From: a virus
Strand: one strand, 5' to 3'
Length of the DNA stretch: 22,266 nucleotides
IMG/VR virus record: IMGVR_UViG_3300022745_000151
Location: 1-22,266 of that record
Under the pieces are notes generated by a model. That model ran no database searches. It was given only the letters and a program-made list of their open reading frames with translations, and was not told where the DNA came from. This document shows positions 15,499 through 17,711 of this stretch, piece after piece; position 1 is the stretch's first letter; every line of letters starts with the position of its first letter. The position numbers were made by a program, and so were the translations under genes.

Positions 15499-15612
15499 TC
15501 ACCTTGCATTTCCGCACGTCACAGCGTGCATTTTCGCAGACTTCTTGCGTGTCATCCACCCCGGGCACTGGCTCAAGGTGTGGTTGCCTGCGCACAGTGG
15601 GCACACCCCCAT
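15499..15612 (-). CDS. Zinc-knuckle miniprotein (CX2CX3HX4C)
   Basis: The 37-aa ORF encodes MGVCPLCAGNHTLSQCPG, then a basic segment (TRKKSAKMHAVTCGNAR). Residues C4, C7, H11 and C16 form a CX2CX3HX4C arrangement close to retroviral-type zinc knuckles, which bind single-stranded nucleic acid. The stop TGA at 15501-15499 is four bases from the next ATG with the junction found again before terS, which argues for a genuine translated end. The start is uncertain: ATG 15612 lacks a clear ribosome site, and an in-frame ATG at 15669 would give 56 aa (MCCTVPKTG...). The longer antisense frame running up to 16833 is not credible. Confidence 0.45.
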   Translation of the reverse strand: MGVCPLCAGNHTLSQCPGWMTRKKSAKMHAVTCGNAR

Positions 15613-15631: not shown

Positions 15632-15660
15632 TTGCATGGTGTACCTGTCTTCGGTACAGT
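15632..15660 (+). promoter_or_regulatory. Sigma70-type promoter with overlapping dyad operator
   Basis: TTGCAT (15632-15637) and TACAGT (15655-15660) are separated by exactly 17 bases, a good fit to -35 and -10 boxes for the plus-strand cassette, with start near 15667. An inverted repeat TGTACC-N7-GGTACA (15640-15658) covers the spacer and reaches into the -10 box, so a dimeric repressor bound there would block polymerase. The helix-turn-helix gene at 16521 in the same operon is a candidate binder. Confidence 0.55.
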
Positions 15661-15708
15661 ACAACACATGGACAGCGCACGGTGCGAGGTCCGAAACGGA
15701 GAGACACC

Positions 15709-16023
15709 ATGACCGCAGCCCGCTACGCCCTTCGGACCACCGCCATCGCTGATTGCAACGCCATGTGGTCTACCGGCAGCTACTGGACCGCCAGCGTCCC
15801 GACCGCCGACAAGCTGCTGACTGGTTCGCAAGTTGACGCGCTGGCCGCTCGCCACCCGCAATCCGTCGTGATTGATGTCATCGTCCACCGCGCCGCCACC
15901 GCAGTCTGGATGAAGGCTTTCCGCGCTGCCACGGTTGCCAACAGCACCCACGAACAACGCCAAGCCGCTCGCGCCGCTGGTGATGCCGCCGTTCAAGCCG
16001 CCGGCTATACCTTGACTGCGTGA
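15709..16023 (+). CDS. Hypothetical 104-aa protein, first gene of counter-oriented cassette
   Basis: It starts at ATG 15709 with GGAGAG seven bases upstream; an ORF reading from 15628 would run through the promoter. The product is Ala-rich with mixed helix (QRQAARAAGDAAVQAAGYTL at the C-terminus) and a hydrophobic strand (QSVVIDVIVHRAATAVWMKA, about 51-70). I recognise no family. It is encoded opposite to the phage late and early operons, behind its own promoter, as expected of an accessory (moron-like) gene. It is the best-expressed candidate of the cassette, having the best ribosome site; anti-defence is one possible role but unproven. Confidence 0.6.
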   Translation: MTAARYALRTTAIADCNAMWSTGSYWTASVPTADKLLTGSQVDALAARHPQSVVIDVIVHRAATAVWMKAFRAATVANSTHEQRQAARAAGDAAVQAAGYTLTA

Positions 16024-16029
16024 TTTTAC

Positions 16030-16299
16030 ATGTGCGACATCACTATTTTCCGTGTTTATGTTTTGAAGCCCTTGAAACATAGGGATAAAAAACATGCCGT
16101 AATGATCTACAGGGTTGGCGCAAAAACAAAAGAAAGCGCAATCGAGACGGTCCGCCAAAAAATCATCAACTGCGAAATTCATCAAAAGCCGGGCTCCCGC
16201 ATAGTTGCATGCACGGAGTTTGGACCGGCGCAAAATATTGTTACCGATGGCGTTGTTTATTGGGACAAAACTCGCGCCAATTCGGCCGAAACCCTCTAA
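16030..16299 (+). CDS. AT-rich hypothetical 89-aa protein
   Basis: The gene is about 45% G+C by my hand count, against roughly 60-70% in nearby coding sequence, and uses codons such as AAA, ATT and TTT that are rare elsewhere in the window. The product is basic: ITIFRVYVLKPLKHRDKKHA, then a strand-helix-strand pattern with VGAKTKESAIETVRQKIINC (29-48). It lies six bases after the previous stop and lacks an obvious Shine-Dalgarno, so translation may depend on coupling. Composition indicates recent acquisition from a lower-GC source. The family is not recognised; the small alpha/beta layout would fit an inhibitor or accessory protein. Confidence 0.6.
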   Translation: MCDITIFRVYVLKPLKHRDKKHAVMIYRVGAKTKESAIETVRQKIINCEIHQKPGSRIVACTEFGPAQNIVTDGVVYWDKTRANSAETL

Positions 16300-16332
16300 C
16301 CCCCCGCCCCTCTGGGCCTTTGGAGATTGATC

Positions 16333-16524
16333 ATGACCATCAGCAACACCCCCACCGAAGTCACCGTCAGCGCCAAGTCTTTTGCCGATAGCGACGACTG
16401 CCTGCAAGCTGCTGCTGACGCCTACGCCGCCAAGCACGGCCTGACCGGCTGGGATCTGGCCCCGCGCTGGGCCGACGACAGCCGCGAAGAAATCGTCCTG
16501 ACGGTCCCCGCGTTCGCCGCATGA
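16333..16524 (+). CDS. Hypothetical acidic 63-aa protein
   Basis: ATG 16333 has GGAG seven bases upstream. The protein is acidic and opens with a Thr/Ser-rich strand (MTISNTPTEVTVSAKSF). It continues with a helix (DDCLQAAADAYAAKHG) and ends REEIVLTVPAF, suggesting a small beta-alpha-beta fold. The pattern (unusual-residue strand, helix, Trp, final strand) does not point me to a family. It overlaps the following helix-turn-helix gene by ATGA, so the two are translationally coupled, as small inhibitors are coupled to their regulators in acr-aca operons. That parallel is inference. Confidence 0.55.
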   Translation: MTISNTPTEVTVSAKSFADSDDCLQAAADAYAAKHGLTGWDLAPRWADDSREEIVLTVPAFAA

Positions 16525-16685
16525 CCGCCCGAGCCACCGAAGCATCCGCCCGAGCCGCGGAGTACGTGCGGCAGGGGCTGTCCTTCCGCGAGGCAGCGAA
16601 GAAGGCGGGCGTGTCGCTGTCAACCTGTCAGGCGGCATGTCGTCGCGCTGGTGTGGTGTCGCAGCGGGCAAAGCCTGCTCCGTAA
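16521..16685 (+). CDS. Small helix-turn-helix protein, putative cassette autoregulator
   Basis: This 54-aa ORF runs from ATG 16521 (ATGA overlap with the previous gene) to TAA 16685. The stretch YVRQGLSFREAAKKAGVSLS, then TCQAACRRAGV (residues 15-45), is a clear resolvase/Hin-type helix-turn-helix: helix, Gly-Val-Ser turn, recognition helix. The protein is basic and is little more than the DNA-binding unit. Placed last in an operon of small unknown genes whose promoter carries a dyad, it resembles Aca regulators of anti-CRISPR operons in position and size. The dyad half site TGTACC would be its predicted target. Confidence 0.6.
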   Translation: MTARATEASARAAEYVRQGLSFREAAKKAGVSLSTCQAACRRAGVVSQRAKPAP

Positions 16686-16881: not shown

Positions 16882-17103
16882 ATGAGTACGGAGACGAAAC
16901 GATTTGTGGGTGGCAGAGTTAAAGGTGGCTGCAGCCTGCACGACGCCGAGAAGCCAGAGCTTTGCCAGAAGCATCTGCAGAGTTGCCCGGAGCCGCGCAC
17001 GGTGGACTGCTGCGGCGTGGTGGACGAACACGACATCGTGGAATTCCACCGTTGCGGCAGGCAGTGGACGGTGCCGTGCAACTTTGATGAGGACTACTCA
17101 TGA
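16882..17103 (+). CDS. Cysteine-rich 73-aa protein, possible zinc binder
   Basis: ATG 16882 has AAGGTG six bases upstream. The 73-aa product has seven Cys (17, 28, 35, 43, 44, 58, 66) and four His (20, 31, 50, 56): KGGCSLHD, LCQKHLQSCPE, VDCCGVVDEH, FHRCGR. CxxH (17/20) and CxxH (28/31) pairs could ligate zinc. An acidic tail (NFDEDYS) follows. No known zinc-finger family matches by eye. It overlaps the next gene by ATGA and heads a second group of plus-strand genes. Confidence 0.55.
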   Translation: MSTETKRFVGGRVKGGCSLHDAEKPELCQKHLQSCPEPRTVDCCGVVDEHDIVEFHRCGRQWTVPCNFDEDYS

Positions 17104-17321
17104 CATACGTTTGGCTGGTCGAGGAGTTCGGCCCGGAAGGCAACAGCACCGGCCGCTACATGCTGGACATGGGCTCTCTTGCTATCACCTGCGACGTATA
17201 CGCAGCACGCCGACTGCGGTGGCAGATGTCGGCCGGGTTCCGCGCGCTGGACATGAAGGAAAAGCATGGCGGCGACTGGAGACCTGTGGAGCATGGATTC
17301 GAGGACATCGACAATCCGTGA
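17100..17321 (+). CDS. Hypothetical 73-aa protein
   Basis: ATGA overlap with the cysteine-rich gene and a TGA-ATG junction with the next gene indicate a coupled trio. The sequence MTYVWLVEEFGPEGNSTGRY looks like an opening beta hairpin, followed by a helix (DVYAARRLRWQMSAGFRALD). It contains one Cys and no visible motif. Small phage proteins beginning with such Trp/aromatic beta hairpins are common, but no function can be named. Confidence 0.5.
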   Translation: MTYVWLVEEFGPEGNSTGRYMLDMGSLAITCDVYAARRLRWQMSAGFRALDMKEKHGGDWRPVEHGFEDIDNP

Positions 17322-17711
17322 ATGACCACTGACATCCTTGACCTTCCCGGGTGGACCGTCCTTGCCAAACGCCTCGAAGACCGTGAGTACGAGCTTGAAG
17401 CCGAGTACACCGTCAAGCCCGCCGCTTGCCAGAAGTGCGGTGTGCTGGACCGGCTGTATCGGCACGGCACCAAGGACACCATCTACCGCGACAGCCCCAT
17501 CAGGGGCCACGCAACCCGCATCCTGGCCCGCGTACAGCGGTACAGGTGCCGGGAGTGCAGCGGAGCGTTTGAGCCGGCCTCGCTGTTCGTCCACCTGACC
17601 CCTGCTGTGGTCCCTGGCGAACATCGAAAGCCGATGCTTCTCTGCCAGAACTGCCACAGACGATTCCACACGGACGAAGCTAGCGGTCATGCGTCAGATT
17701 CCACACACTAA
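17322..17711 (+). CDS. Zinc-ribbon protein, ISL3-transposase N-terminus-like, with HNH-like tail
   Basis: Residues 1-85 resemble the N-terminal zinc ribbon of ISL3-family transposases: DLPGWTVL, CQKCG (Cys 36/39), LYRHGTK, IYRDSPIRGHATRILARVQR, then YRCRECSGAF (Cys 76/79). The transposase catalytic domain is absent and the protein ends at 129 aa. The tail contains VH (His 91) and LLCQNCHRRFH (Cys 108, Cys 111, His 112, His 116), which looks like the end of an HNH nuclease (LCxxCHxxxH). It is either a transposase fragment with a divergent or frameshifted end, or a domesticated zinc protein/nuclease. It starts at ATG 17322 directly after the previous stop. No IS ends were found around it. Confidence 0.5.
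   Translation: MTTDILDLPGWTVLAKRLEDREYELEAEYTVKPAACQKCGVLDRLYRHGTKDTIYRDSPIRGHATRILARVQRYRCRECSGAFEPASLFVHLTPAVVPGEHRKPMLLCQNCHRRFHTDEASGHASDSTH

Follow-up and report, generated by a model that had tools for sequence, protein, structure and literature searches.

The window analysed here, which is the whole 22,266-base stretch of IMG/VR virus record IMGVR_UViG_3300022745_000151, belongs to a phage with P22-like head genes, and Xanthomonas phage PBR31 is among its TerL relatives (66% identity). Minus-strand terminase, portal, scaffold, coat and head-closure genes occupy the left side of a small island, and minus-strand methyltransferase, RusA and replication-type genes its right side, so that plus-strand genes in the island run counter to both neighbours. 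The original prediction for this locus described four such genes behind a promoter of their own, laid out in the manner of an anti-CRISPR (acr-aca) operon. All four open reading frames are present at the predicted lengths (104, 89, 63 and 54 aa), and the last two overlap by ATGA as claimed (Table 1). An independent codon-usage gene caller recovered four of four, calling ORF89 from a later start (65 aa) and giving the HTH54 gene a weak score (1.5). ORF89 lies within a stretch of 45% G+C in a record that averages 63%. A simple consensus scan found no intrinsic terminator for the cassette, and DNA similarity to the whole island was absent among phage records.

Table 1. Features of the counter-oriented island and their positions in the window
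Feature	Coordinates	Strand	Remarks
Promoter, TTGCAT (15632-15637), 17-nt spacer, TACAGT (15655-15660)	15632..15660	+	Assigned by comparison with relatives
Dyad TGTACC-N7-GGTACA, candidate operator	15640..15658		Within promoter spacer; from sequence
5′ leader hairpin GGAC-AG-CGC-[ACGGT]-GCG-AG-GTCC	15670..15692	+	Kept in 5 phage records; constant loop RCGGT, changing stem
ORF104, cargo gene 1	15709..16023	+	104 aa; no relatives found (databases in text)
ORF89, cargo gene 2, AT-rich	16030..16299	+	89 aa; no relatives found (databases in text)
ORF63, cargo gene 3	16333..16524	+	63 aa; small phage family DDCLxAAA...GWDLxPRW
HTH54, terminal mini-HTH, proposed autoregulator	16521..16685	+	Homologues end the cassettes of L026, G001 and G003
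ORF73a, Cys-rich	16882..17103	+	Second plus-strand group, outside conserved cassette; 84-87% identical in L102, L104, L105
ORF73b	17100..17321	+	ATGA-coupled to ORF73a; outside conserved cassette; 74-86% identical in L102-L105
ORF129	17322..17711	+	Outside conserved cassette; ISL3-transposase zinc ribbon and HNH-like tail

While the four genes of the predicted island stand, its end does not, since plus-strand genes continue to position 17711; three further genes make seven counter-oriented genes in two groups, with a gap of 196 nt between them. The protein encoded by the last, ORF129, matches phrog_5749 (3e-19), PF14690 (6e-9) and the HNH family phrog_2255 (0.0016); its N-terminal zinc ribbon is fused to the HNH-like tail, and it resembles a domesticated or truncated transposase piece. 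ORF73a and ORF73b are also coupled in L102, L104 and L105, where a gene of 91-93 aa that is missing from the window precedes them, and they form a separate small accessory pair. On the other side of the island, the leftward operon starts with a minus-strand sequence (15499-15612) for a 37-aa peptide, MGVCPLCAGNHTLSQCPGWM..., whose Cys/His pattern resembles a zinc knuckle and which matched no family.

Comparison of the window with four further uncultured phage records (L026, G001, G003 and L022) shows that a putative promoter and a predicted leader hairpin are retained among phages, while most of the genes downstream change. The cassettes of L026, G001 and G003 end in a mini-HTH gene (55-59 aa) that follows mostly different small genes, so that a homologous mini-HTH is terminal in four of the five records, L022 being the exception. 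In L026, whose TerL is 83% identical to that of the window, a counter-oriented 135-aa gene is coupled to a 55-aa HTH gene near the terminase genes, and the HTH protein shares 36% identity with HTH54 across 50 aa. Among the TerL relatives surveyed (n=80), those with upstream sequence showed a counter-oriented mini-HTH pair only in L026 and the promoter and leader before another gene pair only in L022. The upstream DNA of the window and L026 aligns through CTTGC at -35, GTACAnTA at -10 and ACATGGrCAGCGCrCGGTGCGAGGyCC, after which comes the start codon; 24 of 27 positions match across ACATGG...CC, and about 60 bp of promoter and leader are common to the window, L026 and G001.

Scanning IMG/VR for the core motif yielded ten contigs, namely that of L026 itself, one new true instance (G001/L113) and eight others (L110-L112, L114, L116-L119) in which the motif lies inside coding genes and which were dropped as chance matches. 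G001 has the full promoter and leader, then genes of 67, 75 and 120 aa, then a 59-aa mini-HTH gene (44% identity to HTH54, E 2e-8). G003, reached through its relative of ORF63, has two promoters, small genes that include this relative, and a terminal mini-HTH (41% identity to HTH54, E 6e-6). The covariance model R1, built from the window, L026, G001 and G003, scored the window's promoter and leader at 83.9 bits, the window being one of the model's own sequences, and it yielded one extra match, L022, which is weak but well placed, with its end at the start codon that opens a counter-oriented pair of 83-aa and 59-aa genes. No mini-HTH match was found in L022, where the last gene encodes a different 59-aa protein. 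In about 1 Mb of loci, a regular expression for CTTGC...ATGGrC with the RCGGT hairpin matched five independent records and no others. The carriers differ: the TerL of G001 is 36% identical across half its length, and no TerL match was obtained in G003. All five instances are metagenome contigs, and the leader was absent from 399 Burkholderiales genomes and, in a search without a positive control, from 299 genomes of the Cupriavidus family.

The promoter had been predicted to be covered by a dyad, and the dyad is indeed there, between -35 and -10; the promoter itself holds by comparison and lacks the support of a consensus, as a strict sigma-70 scan called none and the TTGCAT-17-TACAGT assignment rests on relatives rather than on a consensus score. 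In the five records the CTTGC at -35 is invariant, and GTACAnTA is common to four of them. The dyad is modestly non-random (equalled or bettered in 4.6% of promoter shuffles, P about 0.05), occurs only once in the record, and is specific in sequence to the window, not being kept in relatives. Shuffling gave P 0.98 for the promoter dyad of L026 and 0.59 for that of G001, both of them weak; in G003, each of the two promoters has a perfect GCGCA-N3-TGCGC dyad in the interval from -35 to -10 (background 0.011 per kb). In Aca-regulated promoters, one inverted repeat is always located in the core promoter, sometimes with a second, similar one upstream or downstream (PMC9410906). The leader dyad (GCGCACGGTGCGA) may be the same site as the G003 promoter dyad, a possibility that suits the window and G001 but, at one mismatch, not L026.

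The leader hairpin, which formed no part of the original prediction, is better conserved than the promoter dyad. Its core reads CGC-ACGGT-GCG in the window and G001, CGC-GCGGT-GCG in L026, AAC-GCGGT-GTT in G003 and GGC-GCGGT-GCC in L022, such that two of the three inner pairs change on both sides, an outcome equalled by 13 of 500 shuffles; the covariation vanishes when the partner strand is slid, and the outer stem shows a change from GGAC/GTCC to GGGC/GCCC. We regard the case for a conserved RNA structure as good but not overwhelming, because the five leader sequences were selected partly through the motif itself and because three of them (from the window, L026 and L022) belong to phages that are related. 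A 14-codon upstream ORF (MDSARCEVRNGETP; 15668-15712, plus strand) runs from the ATG ahead of the hairpin to an ATGA at the start of ORF104, an arrangement that L026 shares and that G001, G003 and L022 lack. An explanation of the leader as coding for this peptide was rejected, since the reading continues differently in those three records while the stem changes are compensatory.

HTH54 is predicted to form a three-helix HTH (pLDDT 81) and matches only generic HTH models (HTH_psq, 2e-5; HTH_28, 0.0015). By sequence it found no Aca chain in the PDB at E<=10, nor did the mini-HTH profile at E<=1, a search in which the Aca1 positive control was detected. Its best structural match, with Z 5.4, was to TrpR-like HTHs and reflects a common arrangement; no Aca chain was in the list. 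First matches to the N-terminal HTH of a large terminase (75% over 20 aa) were dropped as generic. A LuxR-like HTH match in G016 was also dropped. The best PDB sequence match of the mini-HTH profile (alignment A3) was 2lvs, titled CRISPR repeat binding protein (E 0.00019), which is probably generic HTH similarity. The recognition helix of HTH54 (VSLSTCQAACRRAG) is the most divergent among the four mini-HTHs, which would be consistent with operator and HTH drifting together, though with n=4 it is suggestive only.

The three upstream proteins had been called unrecognised, and this proved correct in PHROGs, Pfam, NCBIfam and PDB sequences, in which no homology to known Acrs was found either; for ORF104 and ORF89, phage records and IMG/VR also held no relatives. 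No toxin domain was found in any cargo protein. ORF63 comes from a small, undescribed phage family found at 10-11 IMG/VR viral loci (40-63% identity), and relatives were absent from 85k prokaryote genomes. Most of its relatives occur without the mini-HTH, only two of about ten phages having both, and the neighbours of the family differ between phages; those in L004 include a YqaJ-like nuclease and a RecT-like gene, as judged by eye. Two of the phages with an ORF63 relative, L018 (391-771) and L019 (1127-1507), also encode a 126-aa low-complexity protein that is nearly all Gly, Tyr, Asn and Asp. AlphaFold2 gives ORF63 a small beta-alpha-beta fold (pLDDT 87), for which neither the PDB nor BFVD held a match at E<=0.001. 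Cargo homologues did not turn out to be structural or replication proteins, an outcome that would have counted against the original prediction. ORF63, with its relative in G003, is the only recurring cargo gene; the 135-aa protein of L026 and the 67-, 75- and 120-aa proteins of G001 show no relationship among themselves or with the window cargo.

Among the closest known counterparts is an acr-aca operon, acrIF1-aca1 of Pseudomonas phage JBD30, which likewise has small cargo, its own promoter with an inverted repeat, and a last, overlapping gene that encodes a small HTH protein, and which is inserted among phage structural genes; Aca proteins are mostly single HTH domains of 60-65 aa (PMC9410906). 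The two differ in that HTH54 has 54 aa and JBD30 Aca1 has 79, with similarity limited to 22 HTH columns and none over the full length; in that the window cargo is unrelated to known Acrs; in the conserved leader hairpin of the window; and in that the window cassette, unlike acrIF1-aca1, runs against its neighbours. Aca2 of phage ZF40 is reportedly a DNA- and RNA-binding HTH regulator. As in the window, a promoter dyad and an mRNA hairpin are found in the operon of this HTH regulator gene. Aca2 has about 125 aa and its own dimerisation domain and belongs to the DUF1870 family (PMC9410906, PMC8434428), whereas HTH54 is a putative binder of only 54 aa, and a hairpin of the window type is also found in L022, which lacks the mini-HTH. 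Anti-defence genes of archaeal viruses were discovered through a conserved early regulatory sequence, and there, as here, such a sequence precedes diverse small genes and discovery proceeds by promoter rather than by protein (PMC11065993). The present case differs in concerning bacterial phages, a sigma-70-like promoter with a leader hairpin, and five instances whose genes are candidates from sequence alone.

The acr-aca-like plan of the original prediction thus stands in its layout, with short same-strand genes, a promoter containing a dyad and a small terminal HTH gene, and other phages repeat it with cargo that mostly differs, as an acr-aca-like cassette would be expected to do. Identity as an acr-aca locus did not follow, because there is no Acr homologue in the databases named above and no Aca homology where compared; the activity is putative. 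The cassette has its own promoter, lies amid unrelated operons and is variably present in relatives, as morons are. In our judgement it is probably a moron-like accessory cassette that is autoregulated by the mini-HTH and works in the manner of an acr-aca operon. Because the same promoter and hairpin precede mostly different genes, the cargo appears exchangeable and possibly anti-defence: within this reading, an anti-defence function of some kind is a tentative proposal with somewhat less than an even chance, and an anti-CRISPR function specifically is unlikely. Host RNA polymerase would fire the cassette promoter soon after DNA entry, and small host-directed proteins, plausibly anti-defence, would be made. 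The accumulating mini-HTH would then bind the candidate dyad between -35 and -10 and shut the promoter, as Aca proteins do, and the leader hairpin may be an element of RNA-level control or stability. The stronger version, with a 55-aa mini-HTH exerting double control over exchangeable anti-defence genes through the promoter dyad and the conserved RCGGU-loop hairpin of the mRNA leader, we consider distinctly improbable as a whole.

Indirect hints of anti-defence, which concern L022 and not the window, come from relatives of its 83-aa cargo protein. Acidovorax phage Alfacinha1 (Peduoviridae; L133 4380-5458, OP131590.1) carries one (34% identity) amid tail genes, where the next gene downstream is annotated as an HTH gene and is of another type, HTH_31. 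In MW202796.1 (Manatee Spring phage; L134 5001-7013) a relative precedes an anti-restriction gene (phrog_7245, 2e-80) by three genes.

The mini-HTH could instead be a developmental switch that controls the terminase and structural genes from a shared intergenic region, with the small genes being ordinary early genes. In its favour, only a short intergenic region separates the cassette promoter from the terminase-side operon that it faces in the window, L026 and G003. In G001, however, the promoter, hairpin and HTH follow a gene block of the same direction and are not divergent from a late operon, and the conserved element points to the cassette, its placement being set by the distance to the first cassette start codon. 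This leaves a switch of this kind with a small chance. Operons of the HigBA type, which are type II toxin-antitoxin systems, also place the toxin first, a terminal HTH last and an operator in the promoter (PMC9410906), so that one small gene might encode a toxin and the terminal HTH an antitoxin and autorepressor. The lack of a toxin domain in the cargo and the swapping of cargo before a conserved HTH, which is unlike a specific toxin/antitoxin pair, make such a module very improbable.

The hairpin may also have nothing to do with the HTH, being a cis-acting antitermination or mRNA-stabilising element of a nonessential operon in which the terminal HTH gene is fortuitous. Its position at the 5′ end of the transcript, constant loop and covarying stem would suit such a role, and because L022 keeps the promoter and hairpin with no mini-HTH match, the leader is not tied to the mini-HTH alone. 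We nevertheless find this explanation doubtful, since four cassettes, from three phage lineages, all end in a homologous mini-HTH and no Rfam family matched the hairpin.

The mini-HTH of this probable acr-aca-like moron cassette, which also has a conserved leader hairpin, is undescribed. If the reading as a moron-like, mini-HTH-regulated cassette is true, the promoter and hairpin would serve as a protein-independent marker of phage accessory, perhaps anti-defence, genes that homology searches have missed, and the mini-HTH family would provide a bait for guilt-by-association. Should dual control also be true, the promoter-hairpin pair would be usable as a bait for new anti-defence genes. The cassette makes it possible to test regulation by one of the smallest HTH proteins, whether through DNA, RNA or both.
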